DNA of 64,000 bases, taken from Lachnospiraceae bacterium. Its GTDB lineage: Bacteria > Bacillota > Clostridia > Lachnospirales > Lachnospiraceae. Shown here in pieces: positions 28,987 through 39,062 of the stretch; positions within the stretch are counted from its first letter, which is position 1, and each line of letters begins with the position of its first letter. Location: the NCBI GenBank assembly GCA_017623675.1, contig JAGAOO010000022.1:40336-104335 (forward strand), given 5' to 3'. A program made the position numbers and the translations under genes. Below the pieces are notes generated by a model. The model worked only from the letters and a program-made list of their open reading frames with translations. It was not told where the DNA came from and did not search any database.

Positions 28987-29042
28987 GAACATAAGAGGAA
29001 TGTCACAGATGTGATATTCCCCTTTCTTCTATATCTAATATA

Positions 29043-29537
29043 TTACACAATAATATCTGCCAGTTTTCCATTGGTAACCCGTAGTAAATCATTGGGATTC
29101 AACTCAATTTGTGATCCTATTCTGCCACCACTGATTATAATAGTATCGAATGCCACCGCACTGCTATGAATTACAGTTGGATAGTTCTTTTTCATACCAA
29201 TTGGCGTACAACCGCCTCGTATATAGCCGGTAACTTGATTGATGTCCTTTACATGTATCATTTCCACCGACTTCTCTTCTACGGCTTTTGCCGCCTTTTT
29301 CAAATCCAGTTCCTGAGCAATCGGAATTACGAATACATAGTAGTTCCTGCTTTTTCCAATAGTAACCAGTGTTTTAAAACTACTTTCGTATGGTTGATTC
29401 AGCTTATCCGCAATGTGAATTCCGTCAATAAACTCATCACATTCATATGTATTTACCTTATAAGATATTTTATTTTTATCCAGTATTCGCATAGCGTTGG
29501 TTTTTACGTCTTTTTCCTTTTCTTTACTTTTTCCCAT
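29043..29537 (-). CDS. ybaK: YbaK-family aminoacyl-tRNA (Cys-tRNA-Pro) deacylase
   Basis: A 164-residue trans-editing enzyme that hydrolyses Cys-tRNA-Pro mischarged by ProRS. KTNAMRILDKNKISYKVNTY at the N-terminus, FKTLVTIGKSRNYYVFVIP, VTGYIRGGCTPIGMKKNYPT and the final GGRIGSQIELNPNDLLRVT are family landmarks. ATG 29537 follows GAGG; a longer in-frame TTG start at 29558 is less likely. It stands between the AraC gene (convergent) and the metallophosphoesterase remnant. Confidence 0.92.
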   Translation of the reverse strand: MGKSKEKEKDVKTNAMRILDKNKISYKVNTYECDEFIDGIHIADKLNQPYESSFKTLVTIGKSRNYYVFVIPIAQELDLKKAAKAVEEKSVEMIHVKDINQVTGYIRGGCTPIGMKKNYPTVIHSSAVAFDTIIISGGRIGSQIELNPNDLLRVTNGKLADIIV

Positions 29538-29604
29538 AATCTCATCCTCTATATCCAACCTTTTTTAATGCATTTCTTCCTATTTATAATATATTTCTAT
29601 GGTA

Positions 29605-29832
29605 CTATTCCAAGTCAATAATAACCAGCTCCGGACGATTAAATACTCTTGGCACCGGTGTACTTTCTCTCGCCAATCCCCGGCTGACAATCAAAGTTCC
29701 ACTTTCAAAATCATATCTTCCACCTGCATACTTTGGAAATATAGGAACCTTTGTCATCAAATATATCCCCGCTCAGCAATATGATATCCGGCAATTGCCT
29801 TTGATAATCCTGATTGCCCAAACGGTCCAATT
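29605..29832 (-). pseudogene. Metallophosphoesterase remnant with internal deletion
   Basis: On the minus strand one frame reads DYQRQLPDIILLSGDIFDDK, a central metallophosphoesterase motif (GDxFD). A second frame then gives FPKYAGGRYDFESGTLIVSR with GLARESTPVPRVFNRPELVI and IDLE, stopping at 29605, which matches the C-terminus of YkuE-like phosphoesterases. The catalytic middle that should lie between them (about 150 residues, including the GNHE and HxH motifs) is absent, and a frameshift separates the pieces. There is no start codon with a ribosome site. The gene is clearly inactive. Confidence 0.75.
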
Positions 29833-29840
29833 AACAAGCC

Positions 29841-30599
29841 TTATGAACCAATCAAAACACCAACATCACCATGCAGCAAAAGCCTTATAATACCGCAAAG
29901 TACCAAACTCACCGGATAGTAGATATAAAATAACCACTTCATTCCCTTCCAGCTTCCCCGTTGTCCGTTATACGCTTTTAGAAATGGAATTGATATACAC
30001 ACAAACAACTGAACAATTCCATATACCTTATCAATAAAGAAGAAATATACCAACGCATAAATCAACGTCCAGAACATCATGCCCTGCATCTGTTTCTTAA
30101 AATTCCCACGATTGGATGCAATGGTGAGAATCGCCATAACTGCGATACAGCTCCAGTCAGAGCAAAATGCAATAACATCGATGAGAATAATCAGCACTCT
30201 TTTCATCCAATCTTTTAACTTTGGATGATCCAGAATTGCTAATCCTACTACCGCCCAGGCCAACGACCACATCACACTGGTCTGATTAAATATAGTGGTT
30301 TGAAACGGGATAAACGGAATCCCAAAGCAAAAATTGTAAGCAAAATGGGAAACCAATGCAAATCCAAACAACCGAATGATGTATTTCTTCACATTCTTCG
30401 TATAATGATATCCTTCCGCTATGAAAAACCACATAGTAGGTGCTGTCAGTCTCCCCAAGATATGGCATCCTACAATCCACCATTCCGTCCGGTACCCCGG
30501 AAATATTACCCAAATTAAATGGTCCAAGGTCATAGCTATAATTGCTATCAGTTTCAGCTGATTGCCATTCAGTCCTTTTGTAATCGCTTTTTCCTCCAT
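29841..30599 (-). CDS. TraX-family membrane protein
   Basis: A 252-residue integral membrane protein with about eight helices. GLNGNQLKLIAIIAMTLDHL opens TraX-like proteins (named for an F-pilin N-acetylase) and FFIAEGYHYTKNVKKYIIRL with KWLFYIYYPVSLVLC near the C-terminus complete the pattern. In Firmicutes such proteins are common on the chromosome and are not tied to conjugation. They may be acyltransferases. ATG 30599 follows GAGGAGA. It lies 31 bp after jetC on the same strand, probably as a downstream rider. A dead relative lies at 7316-7561. Confidence 0.85.
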   Translation of the reverse strand: MEEKAITKGLNGNQLKLIAIIAMTLDHLIWVIFPGYRTEWWIVGCHILGRLTAPTMWFFIAEGYHYTKNVKKYIIRLFGFALVSHFAYNFCFGIPFIPFQTTIFNQTSVMWSLAWAVVGLAILDHPKLKDWMKRVLIILIDVIAFCSDWSCIAVMAILTIASNRGNFKKQMQGMMFWTLIYALVYFFFIDKVYGIVQLFVCISIPFLKAYNGQRGSWKGMKWLFYIYYPVSLVLCGIIRLLLHGDVGVLIGS

Positions 30600-30630
30600 A
30601 TTGTTTTCTCTCCTCATACCCTTCATATAA

Positions 30631-33600
30631 TTAAATGAAATCAAAACTTACCTGTTCATATTCCAGATTCCGGTACTCCACTTCCTCCTGTTCGACCTGA
30701 CTACGGTAATCAATGACAACCGTCTGTTGCCGCTTTCCAACCATCTGTTGTCCCAAGATGTAGTTTACATCGAATCTTGCAGTAATTGCCGGTGTGGCAC
30801 CACGGGCCGGTACAATTAACTGTACATTATTGGTTTTCAGCAATGCGAAAATTGGCTCCCAGATATATACATCCTTGGCTGCACCGAATGGATTATCGAT
30901 GAAAATGGTTTTCATCAGCTTATCATTTTCACCATTTGGAGAATGTAAGCCGGAAATGTAATTAATAATGGAAATTAGGAACTGGATATAAATTCCCTGA
31001 GACTGTCCTGTACTTCCTACTGCTTCTTCGTACCGAAGATACCGGCTCTGCTCCTTCATTCGTTCCCGTTTATACAAGGTCAGTTTAATATTGTTCATAT
31101 CCGTCACAATCACACTGAACAGTTTCTTTAGTTCCAAGCGGCTGCGGATAAACTTAATCCGTTCATTCTGATTCTGGAACCGATCTGCACCTTTTACCAC
31201 ATCATCAATATAATCAGACATTCTCTGCGGTATAAATTCATCCTTAACATAGGAAATATTCAATCCCACCATCTGAATTGGTTCACCCTCCAGCATAATT
31301 CGAGATAATTTCGGAAGCTTCTCCAATTCATTTTTCACATCCTGACAGCGCTGGATACACTGTTTCTCAAAGTTGGATTTGATAAACTGCATATCCTCGA
31401 TGCCCTGTTCCACCCGTTCTTTTTCCAGGGCAATAACATGAATCATAGACGTTAAGCTATCCCGAAGCTGCTTTGCTTCTCCAAAATTGCACGGAATTTC
31501 TACATCATTGCTAATGGTCTGGGATAGTTCAAATGCCTGCATCTCTGCCAAAGCCTGTGCGGTCTGGTTCTTGTATCTTTGCAGTTCATTCTTAGCACGC
31601 TCCAACGCCTTGGTACTCTTGTCATAAGCAAGCAGACTGGCTTCAAATACCTCCCGTAGCTGTTCTTTGCCAACCATCAGCACCTTGGCATTCTGTAAGC
31701 TGATATCATTGGTTTCAACAATTCGTTTCACATCTTTATATAAGTCCAGCATGGCAGTATATTCCCGACTATACTGCTGATACTCTTTTTCAGATTCCTT
31801 GTATGCCTGATCCAAATGGGACAGCAAGGTTTCTCCTTCTGTGATTCGGGCATCAATTTCTTCCTTGGATACTTCTACCTCTTCATATGGGCCAAAGCGT
31901 TCTTCCAGAGTAAGCACCGCCTGTTCAATACTTCCTTCCAACCGGTTCGCCTTCTGATTCCTGCCTGTCAAATGATGCTTCTGGGTATCCACAACCAGGG
32001 TTAATCGGGACAATTCGGTACTTAACAATTCCAATTCCTGCTCGTCCACAGCATACAGTTGGTGGTTCTTTCGCAATTCTTCCAATTCCTCTACGGAACA
32101 GTTTCGCTTTGTAATCGACTTTAATGCCTTATCCATGGATACCTGCAACGTAGCAATTAACTGTTTCTTATCTTCTAAGACAATGGTACTCTTTTCAAAG
32201 ACTGCTTTCACCGCTTTAAAGCGGGCATCTAATTCGGAATCCTCCAACGCCTCCATATCAGCCGGTATGTCTTTGACTGTATGACTTTCATCCAAATAGT
32301 ATTCCTTATAACACTGTTCCCAGTCCGTCAATCGCTCATCCACCTGTGCCTGCAGTGCCTGCATCCGGTGACTGCTTTCCGCATCCGTTACTCTCCACCG
32401 ATACAGTTCCTGCTGATATTGATTTTGAAGCTTTTGTAACCGGACAACCTCTGCTTTCGAGGTTTTCTGTTGTTCCTCCTCCTCTGCCATCTGCCTGCTT
32501 AAACTTGCGATGGATTCTAAGGTGGAACGTTCCTCCAACCAGTCTAATTGTGCCTGCCGCTTCTCTTTTACCTCTTGTTCTTTTGTTTCTACCTCATATT
32601 GTGCCTGCACCAACTCCTGTTTCTTTCTTTCCAGTTGTTCCTTACATTCCCGCAACGTATCTCTTGCCTTTAGCTGTTCCTGTTCCACATCAATAATTGC
32701 AATTCCCTGCAAACCGGCTGCAAAAGCACTATCCTCCTGATATGTGGCACTCATTTCCTCTAACCGGGCAACCTCTTCTCTTAATTCTTCCAATTCCTCT
32801 ATTTGCCGTACCTTCTCCTGCTCTAAGGTATCAGTAGAGACAAATGCTTCTCTTCCCCGTTGTAAATACATGACACAGTCATTTTCACTTTCTGTACTAA
32901 GAGAATCCAGCATAGATAGATTATAAATCGGTAAAAAGCCATCCCCCAGATTCAATTCCCGCAGTTTTCCGTCATTCTCTAAAGCAAGAAAATTCTCAAC
33001 GATCAATCCATATGGCAGTAATGGATGACTGAAAAGCATCTGTGTTCTTACTTCTTCCGTCTGGGCTGCCAGATAATCCATTCCAAATATTGCATTGATG
33101 CCATGGCGGCTTTCAATATAGTATTTTGCCTTTTCTACTGCCTGAGTTGGTGCAATCAGACGTCCCTCTTCCAGCTGCTGTAACCGCTTTTCCGCTTTTG
33201 TCAACAATTCCTTTTTCGCAGAAATCATGGCGATATTATCCAGATAACGTCGATTAATATTCTGAATTAAATCTGTAATATCCTGATTGGTCATCCATTC
33301 TGTTGTTTTCTCACCGGTATTTCCGGTATAGATTTCCAACATTCGTTTCAGCGTACCGGTCTGCTCCTGATACTCCTTATCCTGTGCCTCTAATCTTTCT
33401 AATACAGCTTCTTTCTCCCTTAACTGCTCTGTAACTGTTTCTACTTCCTGTTTTAAGTCATAATAGGTCTGTCTACCCTGCTGCAACTGCTGTTCCAGTT
33501 CATCAATTGCTTCCTGCAATCCACTGTTCTGTTCCCCCCGCTCCTGCAACAGTTCCTCCGCATTCAAAAATGATCCTGTAGCTAAACGGCTGCGTAACTC

Positions 33601-35091
33601 CTGCATCGTCTGAACATTTCTTTGACTACGTTCCTGTATCTGCTGATATTCATGTTCTGCAACAGCGAATGCAATTTGTGTTTCCCGTTCCAAGTGCTCT
33701 AAGGTTTCTGTTTTTTCTTTGGCTTCCTTTGCAGTTGCTTCTTCCTTTTCCAGTGCAGTCCGAATCTCTGCCAATGCCTGGTCGTCCCGTTGCTTTTTTA
33801 GCTTTGCCAGATTGCGAAGTTCACCCAATTGATCTTCATTTTGATGAAGAGATGCTTCAATAACTGCTTCATTTTCTTCTTTTACGCCCTTGTCCTTCCA
33901 GTAATCCAGATAATCATTCATACTCTCCTTGCGGTTTAATTCTTCCTGACAAGTGGCAATTGCCGTCTCTCCCCTTGTAATCTCAGCCTGTAAATCCCGA
34001 ATTTCTTCCATTAGGGCTTCCAATTTTAACTTATCTCTCTTAATCTTTAGGCTTTCCTGTGTTAGTCTCTGGCCATTCATCTGTGCCAATTGCTCTGCCT
34101 TCCGTTGCTCCAGCTCCTGCATTTTCTCTTCACTGTTCTTAGCAACTGTTGCACCTGTAACACATACATCTGCAATATTCGAACATTGCTTTGCCTGATT
34201 TTCATATAACTCCAAAAAGGCAGAAACCCTTGCTTCCAATACATGAAGCAATTCTGTCTGCCGGTCATAATCTGCAATTTCCCGCTTTTTTCGAGACAGT
34301 TCTACCAGCTTATCCTTAATTTCCAACAGAGTATGTGCCATATCATCTGAACTGTCATTCTTATCAATCTTTACCAGATATGCTTTTTCAATGATTTCTT
34401 CAATTAATAAATCCTCTACCACCTTGCGGGCAGTCTTATAATTTGTTTCAAAATACGTCCGGACATGACCTTCCGTCTTGTTGATACCACGAATAATTTC
34501 CCAGTGGCTTTCGTACAGGCCATAGCCACTGATAAAACGCTGGTATTCTCCTTTTCGCTCAAAGACATGAACCTCTAATTTCAAATCCCGTCTTCCCAGC
34601 TCCTTCAGATAATTCTTCCAGCCACTATAGCTGACACGTTCTCCATCCTTCACCAAAGGAAGATTTACGATATCATTATCATTATAATCCCGATAAAAGA
34701 TACAATAGTTAAAGTATTCTACCGCAGCAATTTCCCTGCCACCTTCTTCCTCATCCGGCGAATCCTTTGCTTTTCTGGCGCAGAAACCGGTAGTCATATA
34801 ACGATAGCCTTCATGGATATCCGGTTCATCTAATTTCCACTCAATCAGAGAATGTATGGTGGTGTTTCCACTGCCGGTACGAAACAGCTTTTCAATGGGT
34901 TGTTTCTCATCTAAGGTACAATTCGGAATCAGATTCTGCAGTAATAACAGCATCAAAATACTCTTACCACCGCCATTTGCCAAATCATATAAGGTGTTCT
35001 TTCCATACATGCGCATGGTAAAATCATCATACTGTTGTGTGCCAAAGTTGTATTTTACATTATTGACACGAATTCGATTAATACTCGGCAT
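30631..35091 (-). CDS. jetC: JetC-like SMC/ABC ATPase of a Wadjet/MksB-type complex
   Basis: A 1486-residue SMC-like motor. The N-terminal ATPase half has Walker A LANGGGKSIL at residues 38-47 after the INRIRVNNVKYNFG strand. The long middle (about 280-1280) is heptad-rich coiled coil interrupted by a short globular hinge-like region (about 590-700). The C-terminal half has GSTGQSQGIYIQFLISIIN as the ABC signature region and IFIDNPFGAAKD at about 1396-1407 as Walker B, with Asn where SMC proteins have the catalytic Glu. In this family the complex entraps and extrudes DNA. Start MPSINRI at 35091 follows AGAGGTGAAG; the gene overlaps jetB by 14 bp. The usual nuclease gene jetD is not adjacent. 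Confidence 0.85.
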   Translation of the reverse strand: MPSINRIRVNNVKYNFGTQQYDDFTMRMYGKNTLYDLANGGGKSILMLLLLQNLIPNCTLDEKQPIEKLFRTGSGNTTIHSLIEWKLDEPDIHEGYRYMTTGFCARKAKDSPDEEEGGREIAAVEYFNYCIFYRDYNDNDIVNLPLVKDGERVSYSGWKNYLKELGRRDLKLEVHVFERKGEYQRFISGYGLYESHWEIIRGINKTEGHVRTYFETNYKTARKVVEDLLIEEIIEKAYLVKIDKNDSSDDMAHTLLEIKDKLVELSRKKREIADYDRQTELLHVLEARVSAFLELYENQAKQCSNIADVCVTGATVAKNSEEKMQELEQRKAEQLAQMNGQRLTQESLKIKRDKLKLEALMEEIRDLQAEITRGETAIATCQEELNRKESMNDYLDYWKDKGVKEENEAVIEASLHQNEDQLGELRNLAKLKKQRDDQALAEIRTALEKEEATAKEAKEKTETLEHLERETQIAFAVAEHEYQQIQERSQRNVQTMQELRSRLATGSFLNAEELLQERGEQNSGLQEAIDELEQQLQQGRQTYYDLKQEVETVTEQLREKEAVLERLEAQDKEYQEQTGTLKRMLEIYTGNTGEKTTEWMTNQDITDLIQNINRRYLDNIAMISAKKELLTKAEKRLQQLEEGRLIAPTQAVEKAKYYIESRHGINAIFGMDYLAAQTEEVRTQMLFSHPLLPYGLIVENFLALENDGKLRELNLGDGFLPIYNLSMLDSLSTESENDCVMYLQRGREAFVSTDTLEQEKVRQIEELEELREEVARLEEMSATYQEDSAFAAGLQGIAIIDVEQEQLKARDTLRECKEQLERKKQELVQAQYEVETKEQEVKEKRQAQLDWLEERSTLESIASLSRQMAEEEEQQKTSKAEVVRLQKLQNQYQQELYRWRVTDAESSHRMQALQAQVDERLTDWEQCYKEYYLDESHTVKDIPADMEALEDSELDARFKAVKAVFEKSTIVLEDKKQLIATLQVSMDKALKSITKRNCSVEELEELRKNHQLYAVDEQELELLSTELSRLTLVVDTQKHHLTGRNQKANRLEGSIEQAVLTLEERFGPYEEVEVSKEEIDARITEGETLLSHLDQAYKESEKEYQQYSREYTAMLDLYKDVKRIVETNDISLQNAKVLMVGKEQLREVFEASLLAYDKSTKALERAKNELQRYKNQTAQALAEMQAFELSQTISNDVEIPCNFGEAKQLRDSLTSMIHVIALEKERVEQGIEDMQFIKSNFEKQCIQRCQDVKNELEKLPKLSRIMLEGEPIQMVGLNISYVKDEFIPQRMSDYIDDVVKGADRFQNQNERIKFIRSRLELKKLFSVIVTDMNNIKLTLYKRERMKEQSRYLRYEEAVGSTGQSQGIYIQFLISIINYISGLHSPNGENDKLMKTIFIDNPFGAAKDVYIWEPIFALLKTNNVQLIVPARGATPAITARFDVNYILGQQMVGKRQQTVVIDYRSQVEQEEVEYRNLEYEQVSFDFI

Positions 35092-35800
35092 GCTCTTCAC
35101 CTCTTTCTAACAATTCATAAATCCGTCCCCGATATTCTTCAAAATACTGCTCTGCCAATGCCTTCAACCGGTCTGTAGGGTAATACCGTTCATTCACATC
35201 CACAAACAAATTCTGACTTAATAAAAAATTGCAGACCAGCTTGGCCAATCCCATCCGGGAAGCTCTGGAAGCACGAAGCTGTTCCCTGTCTTCCCCGGTA
35301 ACCATCGGTAATTCCTCCCACAGCAGGGCGATGCTCTTAAAGCTGTTTTCCTCTATTTCCTCCATGCTGTATATGCTCAAATCTCTGGTAATCGTTGAGA
35401 GAGAAGCAGAAACCTCTTTCACGATTTCTTCCAATCGTATGTACTCCCGATACTGGTAAGAAGCAGAATCCTGATAAAAGCATAGTAAAATCCGGTACAT
35501 GATATAGTACGCCATATACAACTCCCGATTATAGCGAAGTCCCATAAGTCGCTTCAATTCCTCATTGGTATAACCAAATACCCGGTTCCCTTCTCCGGCA
35601 CTTAAATATAAAGCTTCCTTGTATTCATACAGATTCAAATTCAGCTTCTTCAATATCTGATTCAAAATCTCATAGACTTCTGCATTCTGGTAATACTCCT
35701 CGTACAAGCTTCCATTTTCCGGATGAGAACGCCTGATTTCCTCACCCATGGTAAGCTTTGCGTACAGTTCCAGTGCTTTATCCATATTGCGACTATCCAT
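35078..35800 (-). CDS. jetB: JetB-like KITE subunit (DUF6063-type)
   Basis: A 240-residue soluble, mostly helical protein with a winged-helix feel at the C-terminus (LGLAKLVCNFL-like region MGLAKLVCNFLLSQNLFVDV, followed by RYYPTDRLKALAEQYFEE). It sits exactly between the kleisin-like and SMC-like genes, where MksE/JetB subunits occur, and overlaps jetC. From memory I match it to the DUF6063 family found in such Firmicutes operons. Its predicted job is to bind the kleisin and regulate the ATPase. The assignment rests on position and general appearance more than on motifs. Confidence 0.7.
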   Translation of the reverse strand: MDSRNMDKALELYAKLTMGEEIRRSHPENGSLYEEYYQNAEVYEILNQILKKLNLNLYEYKEALYLSAGEGNRVFGYTNEELKRLMGLRYNRELYMAYYIMYRILLCFYQDSASYQYREYIRLEEIVKEVSASLSTITRDLSIYSMEEIEENSFKSIALLWEELPMVTGEDREQLRASRASRMGLAKLVCNFLLSQNLFVDVNERYYPTDRLKALAEQYFEEYRGRIYELLERGEEHAEY

Positions 35801-35819
35801 ATTTCCTGTTCCTTTCCTT

Positions 35820-37367
35820 TTATCTTCTAACGAATAACAGATTGGTAATGGTGAATTCCCTTTCTCCTCTTGTAATTGGAATTTCTTCCTGTACCAGAAA
35901 TTCCAACATAAATTTCATATCCCAGAACCGTTCCTTTTCTTCTTCCGTAAATGCTTCAATTACCAGATTTTCCAAAAAGGTTTCCGGCTTTTCATATAAT
36001 TGCTGCAAGGAATACTCTGTTTTCTGGGCAATGTGTACCAGAAAAGAATAATAATCACCGTTGCTTAAAAAGTCTTCTCCGTACTTAATTTCCAAAATGG
36101 CATTGAATTCTTTTAATTCAATCCTATCCTTTTTCGTCAATTGATCTAACAACTCATAGAATATTCTCCCAAAGTTATGGGCAATTCGTATATCTTCTTT
36201 TTCATCTTCATATCGGAACTCCCGGTTGGTGTCCTCTTTTACTACCTTTTCACCCTTATCCACGTTATCCGTCTTATAGGTAAGCATATTATCAATGGAC
36301 TTGATGGAAAATGATTTTTCCAGTTTCGGTGTAAAGAGTGGTGCCAAGATATAAATCATGTCTTCCGGTGAATCTTTTTGCTCCAGTTTTTGCAGACTAC
36401 CCTGAAAATCAAATACATTCCGCAGTTTTCGAAGCTTTGCCTGATGAATCATTTTATCTGTAATATCCTGCAATTGCGTAGTTTCACGAATTAATTCTCC
36501 ATGGCGGTGAATGGTCTTTTTCAATTCCGTTTCCAGCTTGTTGATTTCTTCCAGAGACTTATAAAATGCAGTTGTCTCCTGTTTTCCGGCACCTTCCAAC
36601 GTTGCTTTACTTAATGTCTGCTCTATTAATGCCTTATTCTTGGCAAATAATTTCTGTTCCTCATCGAACCAGCGTGCCACTGTCGCCATGTATTCTTCGC
36701 AAGCCTTTGCCCCTTGGAACACATCATGTCCCAATAGTTCAATTACTTCCTCTTTCTGTGCCACCAATCGTTTCACTTCGCTGTTAATCCGGCGTACCAC
36801 ATCAATACCACCTTTGAAATTCTTGGCATTAATCATTTTTTCCAGTAGCACCTGTTGGATACTGATTTTACTTTCATCCTTAATTTCCTTGGTATCTAAA
36901 TAGAATTCTATTCCCTCCGAGGTAATTCGGTATTCCACCACACCTTCCCGAATATCACTTTCAATCAAACGAACCCTTGCTGTCTTCCGCTTTTTATCCT
37001 CCGGATCAAAAAAATGAAATTCGAAGGGTTTCCCCTCATTTTTTATCTTATCAAAAATATAAGCAACTAATTCCTGCTCTTCCTCCGGCTCCACCTGCAA
37101 TTCAAAATCCCGCCGCAGCAATTCTGTTAAAAAACGCTCATACTGTTCATAGGTAATCGCCTGCTCGTTAAATTGGTTTTCATTAATAAAAAACCGCAGA
37201 CTTGCCATGGTAATATAACCCATATCCAGTTCCGCAAACCGCCCCTCCTTGTACTGGGTAAAGGTGGTTTCATTTAAAACAAAAAAGGGATAATATTTCC
37301 GCAGATTTTGCATACGTGCATGATGTTCTTCCATGATATCATTTATCATAATATAGGTTTCCGCCAC
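35820..37367 (-). CDS. jetA: JetA-like kleisin subunit (Wadjet / MksF type)
   Basis: A 515-residue soluble protein. The N-terminal part (residues 1-130, NLRKYYPFFVLNETTFTQYK then TYEQYERFLTELLRRDFELQ) is helical winged-helix-like. Residues 165-300 are long helices (KMINAKNFKGGIDVVRRINS) and a C-terminal winged helix precedes the end (VQEEIPITRGEREFTITNLL). This fits the kleisin/MksF-type JetA of Wadjet systems, which bridges the SMC head and neck. The start is GTG 37367, eight bases after AAGGAG. It lies only 33 bp after the fba terminator hairpin, so its promoter must overlap that hairpin, or expression comes by read-through. Confidence 0.75.
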   Translation of the reverse strand: MAETYIMINDIMEEHHARMQNLRKYYPFFVLNETTFTQYKEGRFAELDMGYITMASLRFFINENQFNEQAITYEQYERFLTELLRRDFELQVEPEEEQELVAYIFDKIKNEGKPFEFHFFDPEDKKRKTARVRLIESDIREGVVEYRITSEGIEFYLDTKEIKDESKISIQQVLLEKMINAKNFKGGIDVVRRINSEVKRLVAQKEEVIELLGHDVFQGAKACEEYMATVARWFDEEQKLFAKNKALIEQTLSKATLEGAGKQETTAFYKSLEEINKLETELKKTIHRHGELIRETTQLQDITDKMIHQAKLRKLRNVFDFQGSLQKLEQKDSPEDMIYILAPLFTPKLEKSFSIKSIDNMLTYKTDNVDKGEKVVKEDTNREFRYEDEKEDIRIAHNFGRIFYELLDQLTKKDRIELKEFNAILEIKYGEDFLSNGDYYSFLVHIAQKTEYSLQQLYEKPETFLENLVIEAFTEEEKERFWDMKFMLEFLVQEEIPITRGEREFTITNLLFVRR

Positions 37368-37390
37368 GAGAAATTCTCCTTTGTATCACA

Positions 37391-37441
37391 AGCTAAAATA
37401 GGGTGTATGATTGTCAGAATTCTAACAATTCATACACCCTA
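37391..37441 (-). terminator. Terminator of fba in front of jetA
   Basis: On the minus strand AGGGTGTATGAATTGTTAG pairs with CTGACAATCATACACCCT (37400-37441) around the central GAATTC, followed by ATTTTAG. The long stem and position right after fba support termination. It leaves almost no room for a separate jetA promoter. Confidence 0.82.
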
Positions 37442-37479
37442 TATAATACCATATGAAAGGAAAAGTAACAACCTAAGGA

Positions 37480-38343
37480 TTAAGCCTTACCTACAGAACC
37501 GAATAATTCCATCTTTTCCTTAACAGTTGCCTTAATTGCCTCTGCACCGGGAGCTAATAACTTACGTGGGTCAAAGCCCTTACCTTCTAAGTCCTTACCA
37601 GCTTCGATGTACTTACGTGTAGCATCTGCAAATGCTAACTGGCACTCGGTATTTACATTAATCTTAGCAACACCAAGAGAGATTGCCTTCTTAATCATAT
37701 CTTCCGGAATACCTGTACCACCATGTAATACTAATGGCATATCTCCTGTTAACTGTTGGATTGCATCCAAAGTCTCGAAGCTTAAGCCTTCCCAATTAGC
37801 CGGATACTTACCATGAATGTTACCGATACCTGCTGCCAACATGGTAACACCTAAGTCAGCAATTGCCTTACATTCCTGTGGGTCTGCACATTCGCCCTTA
37901 CCGATAACGCCATCTTCTTCACCACCAATAGAACCAACTTCTGCTTCTAAGGATAAACCTAACTTGTTACAGGTTTCCACCAATTCCTTTGTCTTAGCAA
38001 TGTTCTCTTCGATTGGATAATGAGAACCATCGAACATGATAGAAGAGAAACCAGCTTCGATACACTTCTTAGCTCCTTCGTATGAGCCATGATCTAAGTG
38101 AAGTGCTACAGGAACGGTAATGTTTAACTCTTCAATCATTGCCTTAACCATAGCAGCAACAGTCTTATATCCTGTCATGTACTTACCAGCACCCTCAGAT
38201 ACACCTAAGATAACCGGAGACTGTAACTCCTGTGCGGTTAATAAAATTGACTTTGTCCATTCCAGATTGTTGATGTTGAACTGACCAACTGCATAATGTC
38301 CAGCCTTAGCCTTTGTTAACATCTCTTTTGCTGATACTAACAT
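37480..38343 (-). CDS. fba: Class II fructose-1,6-bisphosphate aldolase
   Basis: A zinc-dependent glycolytic/gluconeogenic aldolase of 287 residues. Motifs are YAVGQFNINNLEWTKSIL, VPVALHLDHGSYE (zinc His and catalytic Asp), LEAEVGSIGGEEDGVIG, and MPLVLHGGTGIPEDMIKKAI followed by ISLGVAKINVNTE. ATG 38343 follows GGAGGA; an in-frame extension to 38388 lacks support. It ends at a strong terminator. Confidence 0.96.
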   Translation of the reverse strand: MLVSAKEMLTKAKAGHYAVGQFNINNLEWTKSILLTAQELQSPVILGVSEGAGKYMTGYKTVAAMVKAMIEELNITVPVALHLDHGSYEGAKKCIEAGFSSIMFDGSHYPIEENIAKTKELVETCNKLGLSLEAEVGSIGGEEDGVIGKGECADPQECKAIADLGVTMLAAGIGNIHGKYPANWEGLSFETLDAIQQLTGDMPLVLHGGTGIPEDMIKKAISLGVAKINVNTECQLAFADATRKYIEAGKDLEGKGFDPRKLLAPGAEAIKATVKEKMELFGSVGKA

Positions 38344-38486
38344 AATAAATCCTCCATTTGTTATAGTGTCGCACTTGTCCATGCGCATTCATACCGTAAG
38401 TATACCCCATTTTCATGCGGAAATAAAGCAAAAAATATTATTCTTATTAATTTCCATCCACTCAGATACCCTCAAGTCATTCAGCT

Positions 38487-38936
38487 TCATATCCAGTAAG
38501 GTAGCAAATCACCGATTGGATCAATATGAAATGCTACCAGTAGAACATTTTTTAAAACAAAATTTAAAATAACAATTCCCAGTGCCACATAACAAAACCA
38601 TGTCCTCAAATAATAATACCGTTTCCCATTATGACGTATCAAGGTAATAATCGCACCAACATAATAGTCTATAAAAATCAAAGCACAATAGAGCACAATC
38701 GGGTGGCAAATAAAAGACTCCGAAATATCCAATCTCAGCAAAGCATAAACAGCTCTGGTACCTCCACAGCCGGGACAATACAGATGTAAGTACTCATGAA
38801 AGACACACTGGGTATTTAACAATTGAACCCACGGACAATATTTCCAAATCATCAAACCGGCAAACAGCAGGATGCATCCCACATTTACCCATATAAATGC
38901 TTTTCTTTCCTGTTTCATAAATGTATTTTGATCCAC
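38487..38936 (-). CDS. DUF2752-family membrane protein
   Basis: A protein of about 149 residues with four membrane helices and the family hallmark YCPGCGGTRAVYALL in a loop near the middle. Function unknown. I prefer GTG 38936 (DQNTFMKQERK), seven bases after AGAGGA. However, the frame is open upstream to an ATG at 39047 that would prepend 37 residues encoded by a copy of the interspersed repeat (MNARSKDKPWLLAGKGLSES and onward). The promoter at 39060 is only about 6 bp from 39047, so the long form would be nearly leaderless. Confidence 0.82.
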   Translation of the reverse strand: MDQNTFMKQERKAFIWVNVGCILLFAGLMIWKYCPWVQLLNTQCVFHEYLHLYCPGCGGTRAVYALLRLDISESFICHPIVLYCALIFIDYYVGAIITLIRHNGKRYYYLRTWFCYVALGIVILNFVLKNVLLVAFHIDPIGDLLPYWI

Positions 38937-38963
38937 TGAATAATCCTCTTTTCCTTCGGTTTT

Positions 38964-39062
38964 TCGGTGTTCGTTGCACTCACCCAAGCTCTCAGACAAC
39001 CCCTTGCCTGCAAGCAGCCAGGGCTTGTCTTTCGACCTTGCGTTCATGCTTATGCGTTCATT
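38964..39062. repeat. Third, diverged copy of the 3.6-kb repeat family
   Basis: From TCGGTGTTCGTTGCACTCAC at 38964 to GCGTTCATTATATCA the sequence aligns throughout with the second unit at 3733-3834, with scattered substitutions, including CTTGCCTGCAAGCAG and GACCTTGCGTTCATGCTTAT. Here too it lies between a minus-strand promoter and the next minus-strand gene. Confidence 0.85.

Follow-up and report, generated by a model that had tools for sequence, protein, structure and literature searches.

What does a Wadjet operon do when it lacks its nuclease? The question is raised by three adjacent genes in a stretch of 64,000 nucleotides, called here the window, from a Lachnospiraceae bacterium (GenBank assembly GCA_017623675.1, contig JAGAOO010000022.1, positions 40,336 to 104,335 of the forward strand). 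In Wadjet, JetABC is the sensing part and JetD the cutter, according to the review PMC10586767. The genes in the window correspond to jetA, jetB and jetC, and jetD is found neither beside them nor elsewhere in the draft genome. The explanation towards which we lean, and which we hold to be somewhat better than an even proposition, is that a nuclease-free motor of Wadjet type III has been kept as a second, MksBEF-like chromosomal condensin.

The operon and its type

The three genes lie on one strand, in the order A-B-C:

35820..37367, minus strand: jetA (kleisin position), 515 amino acids; PADLOC model JetA3 (PDLC00560), 727.8 bits, residues 1-514
35078..35800, minus strand: jetB (KITE position), 240 amino acids; PADLOC model JetB3 (PDLC00571), 351 bits; Pfam DUF6063 (PF19539), E 5.2e-49
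30631..35100, minus strand: jetC (SMC-like ABC ATPase), 1489 amino acids; PADLOC model JetC3 (PDLC00581), 1848 bits, residues 4-1489

Each of the three models is covered nearly end to end by the window's protein, and the models for type I or type II Wadjet give no PADLOC match at E<=1 with any of them. Judged by these matches, the three genes are those of a type III Wadjet, each at full length, a type reportedly defined in the discovery paper of 2018. An earlier note, made from the letters of this DNA alone, had seen in the open reading frames a kleisin-like, a KITE-like and a giant SMC-like ATPase gene, which the profile search assigns to jetA, jetB and jetC, and had wavered between Wadjet and an MksBEF-type condensin. 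By sequence the Wadjet assignment holds, in its type III form; the MksBEF assignment does not, as MksBEF is of type I and no type I model matches. The note had also called the operon overlapping. This is true of jetB and jetC, which share 23 nucleotides if jetC begins with the GTG at 35100, or 14 if it begins with the likelier in-frame ATG at 35091, and untrue of jetA and jetB, which are separated by 19 nucleotides.

Nor does JetC appear to be an ATPase of the SbcC/Rad50 type, an identity that the earlier note had named as one that would refute its view. SbcC and Rad50 carry the CXXC of a zinc hook in mid-coil; the motif was sought along JetC and was absent, and the match to JetC3 extends over the whole protein. 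Neither JetC nor JetB had a relevant match when searched by sequence against the PDB. The G+C content of the operon is 41.4%, against 40.2 +/- 1.2% for window stretches of the same length.

Absence of jetD

Upstream of jetA lies fba, encoding a class II fructose-bisphosphate aldolase, and downstream of jetC a gene for TraX and then the relic of a phosphoesterase gene. None is JetD-like, and the flanks are as the earlier note described them. The search was extended to all contigs of the window's genome (a draft of 2.81 Mb in 84 contigs, 93.8% complete), and these hold no match to JetD_C (PF09983); a profile made from ten JetD proteins of type III also found nothing there. The note's suspicion that jetD is missing thus survives at the level of the draft genome.

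The same 150 Lachnospiraceae genomes, mostly drafts, served throughout as the family survey. DUF6063, the JetB family, is found in 34 of them and JetD_C in 47. The JetB-positive genomes are of two types, 11 bearing jetD and 23, the window's included, free of it, as judged from up to 20 kb around 33 JetB matches and from the window for its own genome. In the jetD-bearing type, jetD is directly upstream of jetA in ten loci and is split over two contigs in the eleventh genome, G136; the two copies of JetD tested are PADLOC JetD3. In the jetD-free type, the upstream flank of jetA is visible in 22 of 23 genomes (the contig of G092 begins inside jetB), and it always holds another gene, never jetD.

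Ten of the eleven jetD-bearing genomes supplied the proteins for the type III JetD profile, and its success in all eleven (E<=2.4e-106) is therefore partly by construction. G136, which did not contribute to it, was matched at 2.4e-106. Thirteen further genomes gave weak matches only, from 6.5e-4 to 1.4e-6, two of these genomes (G014 and G040) being jetD-free, and nothing better than 2e-6 was found in the 23 jetD-free genomes. A broken type III jetD was seen in G074 (contig C50, 2870-3255, profile 2.8e-25), a genome with no match to DUF6063.

Was jetD lost, or had it yet to be gained? DUF6063 has matches in 20 of 291 genomes of the class, the 20 including that of the window; one match (G375) fell below the cut-off and was left out, and the survey yielded 19 loci from 18 genomes. 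In the 17 loci that come from other families, jetD is without exception directly upstream of the jetA position, although the jetA of L272 and the separate jetB of L271 were not recognized by the survey profiles. The remaining two loci are from Lachnospiraceae: L264 is jetD-free, and L267, whose contig stops upstream of jetA, was assigned its jetD status by clade only. In a tree built from the concatenated JetA, JetB and JetC of 53 loci (a quick search, with midpoint root and no bootstrap), a branch with an SH-aLRT of 100 sets the 27 jetD-free rows apart from the rest. The tree carries warnings in its long branches (L266, L268), in the meeting of long branches among jetD-bearing rows and in uneven letter make-up. 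The rows nearest to the jetD-free clade, L260, L263 and L266, all have jetD. Since JetD is present in every sampled relative outside that clade, its absence is most simply read as a loss, and the nuclease seems, on this tree, to have been lost once, in a Lachnospiraceae ancestor.

Maintenance of the genes

An operon deprived of its effector might be expected to drift, but the three genes in the window show little sign of it. Compared with the nearest relative, L001, the ratio of nonsynonymous to synonymous substitution rates (dN/dS) is 0.037 for jetA, 0.036 for jetB and 0.022 for jetC (over 413 codons of the last). In 23 jetD-free loci, which represent 19 genera, each of the three frames is complete.

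The ATPase motifs of the window's JetC can be read as an intact Walker A (NGGGKS), a signature (STGQ) and a Walker B (DNPF). The signature STGQ recurs in 27 of 28 jetD-free JetC proteins, the remaining copy being truncated, and DNPF is found in every readable type III JetC, 27 without JetD and 26 with it. The position of the catalytic glutamate thus reads asparagine in type III JetC, whereas two type I copies read DE. Because the asparagine occurs in copies with and without JetD, it appears to be a type III trait here, unlinked to the loss of JetD. The signature was at first read as destroyed, SGGE having been aligned with GQSQ. That reading was rejected, because the jetD-bearing sisters read SEGQ, SKGE and SSGQ and because a direct count of the pattern shows STGQ intact. 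In the jetD-free JetC proteins, 199 columns are conserved at the level of at least 95%, most of them in two head regions; a few columns, e.g., JetC position 199, are conserved with JetD but not without it, a difference that may or may not mark the loss of a docking site for JetD and whose interpretation calls for a type III structure.

Distribution and site

The two types of operon are distributed differently over a tree of RpoB from 130 of the 150 genomes (the 20 left out comprise 13 with no RpoB match and 7 with a partial one, among them jetD-free G129). The jetD-free label, borne by 22 rows, requires 10 changes, against a mean of 20.6 in shuffles, none of 2000 being as low. The jetD-bearing label, borne by 11 rows, requires 11, against a mean of 10.7, a scatter like that of chance. 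All but one of the 22 jetD-free rows fall within one clade of 59 rows. Two sub-clades are positive in six of six rows, one of them holding the window's genome, and jetB is present in all eight genomes of the window's genus; in one jetD-bearing genus, two of four genomes are positive. The pattern suggests that the jetD-free operon is inherited with the chromosome, by clades.

In ten loci the operon stands just downstream of dnaX-ybaB-recR, directly after recR in eight (L076, L079, L082, L085, L092, L093, L095 and L264) and with one gene between in the other two. (The three names come from Pfam on L092, recR also on L264, and elsewhere from sequence clusters.) As it happens, recR encodes a Toprim protein, and it occupies the exact place that in other type III loci belongs to jetD, the gene for a Toprim nuclease; this is probably a coincidence of the dnaX-ybaB-recR site. 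In the window's genus the operon is at another site, with neighbors partly shared among the members of the genus.

Possible function

The intact motor without its blade, the distribution over whole clades and the frequent position behind genes of replication and repair all point to a chromosomal SMC complex. The course of events that we infer is as follows. After the single loss of JetD, jetABC would have been retained under purifying selection and passed on with the chromosome. Dimers of JetC, bridged by JetA and JetB, would bind DNA and could extrude loops of it at the expense of ATP. The complex may then act on the structure or segregation of the chromosome beside Smc, and it presumably cuts no DNA. 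A canonical Smc was found in all 25 genomes of the jetD-free clade that were tested (split over two contigs in G040), so Jet has not replaced it. Smc of Smc-ScpAB is the same kind of machine, encoded in the same genomes by a separate gene.

Other explanations have to be considered. The main rival is that the operon still serves defense, with JetABC recognizing small circular DNA by extruding it completely and then holding, compacting or silencing it. Control of plasmids without cutting would make use of the division of labor between sensor and cutter given in PMC10586767, and the JetC heads are indeed highly conserved in the jetD-free clade. Against it stands the clade-wise spread, which reaches every sampled member of the window's genus and is unlike the chance-like scatter of the jetD-bearing systems; moreover, a type I or II system that has its own JetD is present in three of the jetD-free genomes. 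We consider it unlikely. It seems to us quite unlikely as well that the part of JetD is taken in trans by some nuclease or other effector whose gene lies elsewhere. There is a JetD_C match elsewhere in five of the 23 jetD-free genomes, and the Toprim protein RecR is encoded at the usual place of jetD in eight loci. But the other 18 genomes, the window's among them, have no such match. Among the five, the JetD of G040 and of G042 belongs to a type I operon and that of G126 to a type II operon; the match in G115 is a piece of JetD1 (110 amino acids), and that in G014 is a piece lying at the end of a contig. The gene recR does not adjoin the operon in the window, and the other recurrent neighbor, a TPR/P-loop gene described below, is found also in genomes without Jet. 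Of the three options offered in the earlier note, loss of the effector with condensin-like retention is favored by the tests, a chromosomal role being predicted; no jetD was found elsewhere in the draft genome.

Perhaps, instead, the operon is a decaying remnant, adrift since its effector was lost. The absence of jetD is what such a remnant would show, but the reading is already contradicted by the low dN/dS (0.02-0.04) of all three genes against L001, by the complete frames across 19 genera and by the constancy of the ATPase motifs, and we give it hardly any credence. Or perhaps jetD is present and was missed, in a gap of a draft or through divergence. The window's genome is incomplete and in many contigs, PF09983 gives weak scores to type III JetD, and the success of the JetD profile is in part built in. 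Against this, the profile found both the eleventh genome, G136, and jetD in 17 of 17 distant loci; in the jetD-free genomes it gave nothing better than 2e-6, and in 22 of these 23 the place upstream of jetA is taken by a different gene. We hold a missed jetD to be very improbable.

Several observations weigh against a condensin-like role inherited with the chromosome. Only one pair, G000 and G106/L077, permits Jet to be set beside rpoB, the remaining comparisons being close to saturation. In it dN/dS is 0.044-0.064 for the Jet genes, at high dS, which is about twice the 0.028 of rpoB; the values indicate that the Jet genes are under constraint, if to a somewhat lesser degree than rpoB. The correlation between Jet and RpoB distances was considered as support for vertical descent of the jetD-free type and was rejected, being higher in the jetD-bearing set (rho 0.84-0.87) than in the jetD-free set (0.27-0.54). 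Plasmid and phage collections gave no match to the operon, an absence that is not telling, because the jetD-bearing control is absent from them too; viral contigs gave no match either. Finally, the jetD-free operon is absent from 127 of the 150 family genomes and from one of the three in the genus of G094 (a draft 88% complete), so it cannot be a necessity for the family as a whole.

Relation to known systems

With other Wadjet type III systems the window's operon shares the JetA3, JetB3 and JetC3 families, gene order, strand, close spacing, Walker A (NGGGKS/T) and Walker B. It differs from them in having no jetD upstream or elsewhere, in the constant STGQ and in its occurrence by clades rather than scattered. 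With the MksBEF condensin, as described in PMC10586767, it shares genes of the SMC, kleisin and KITE positions without a gene for a nuclease, beside a canonical Smc. It is nonetheless of type III by sequence, with no type I match, and its loss of JetD would have been independent. MksBEFG, or Wadjet type I, has the same general architecture of the motor but keeps JetD/MksG and has, in two copies, DE at Walker B. Comparison of JetA and JetB of the window's type with two type I copies by hhalign, from shallow alignments, gave no profile match.

The condensin-like reading can be put in a broader form, to which we give an even chance: a family of Bacillota has made a housekeeping condensin of Wadjet type III, through one loss of JetD independent of the MksBEF lineage, fixed in whole clades, often beside dnaX-ybaB-recR and, where tested, always beside canonical Smc. 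It would be the second, independent case after MksBEF in which immune and chromosome-organizing SMC complexes have interconverted, and a natural experiment that parts the Wadjet motor from its blade and can be compared with jetD-bearing sisters. There may also be a practical consequence: since the protein models match over their full length, defense catalogs may count jetD-free loci as anti-plasmid systems. A search of the literature on Wadjet, type III, MksBEF and JetD loss, in which the discovery paper and most subscription papers were outside the scope, gave no title on a jetD-free type III clade among the matches listed, and a search for DUF6063 found no paper.

Neighboring genes and leader

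The gene directly after jetC in 12 loci (11 from the family survey, and L264) encodes a large protein with TPR, an acidic linker and a P-loop, e.g., at L092:14956-17706, with relatives elsewhere. At E<=1e-10 its profile finds matches in 149 of the 150 Lachnospiraceae genomes, whether or not they carry Jet, although the weakest of these, at about 1e-15, may represent different TPR proteins. As a dedicated effector it was rejected, since it occurs also in genomes without Jet, and it is taken to be a chromosomal neighbor. In genomes lacking the jetD-free operon, one of 15 TPR/P-loop loci (G078, L111) has the same row of genes minus jetABC; two of the 15 are from jetD-bearing genomes. Apart from recR and this gene, each cluster of direct neighbors is found in at most three loci, and no candidate substitute for JetD recurs beside the operon among the jetD-free loci compared.

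Three further features flank the operon in the window:

37443..37471, minus strand: promoter-like site TTGTTA-17-TATTAT, directly after the stop codon of fba
37400..37440, minus strand: hairpin of 18 bp followed by a short run of U, where the jetA transcript is predicted to begin
29799-29608: best piece of the phosphoesterase relic, corresponding to residues 226-288 of the gene that is intact in a relative from the genus

The region holds 28 promoter-like matches, and shuffled sequences give about as many (25.0 +/- 5.9), so a single match means little; nevertheless, L001 has the same site although another gene lies upstream there, and L077 has a similar one. The hairpin (-25.1 kcal/mol, z -6.4) was equaled in none of 200 shuffles. 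It was not listed by the terminator scan, and Rfam has no match within positions 29000-39000 of the window. Stems of the same kind occur in L001 and, with a changed sequence, in L077, and the hairpin may serve as an attenuator or as an operator. At the other end of the operon, the window's TraX gene sits between jetC and the metallophosphoesterase relic, and full-length relatives of the relic follow jetC in L002, L003 and L077.

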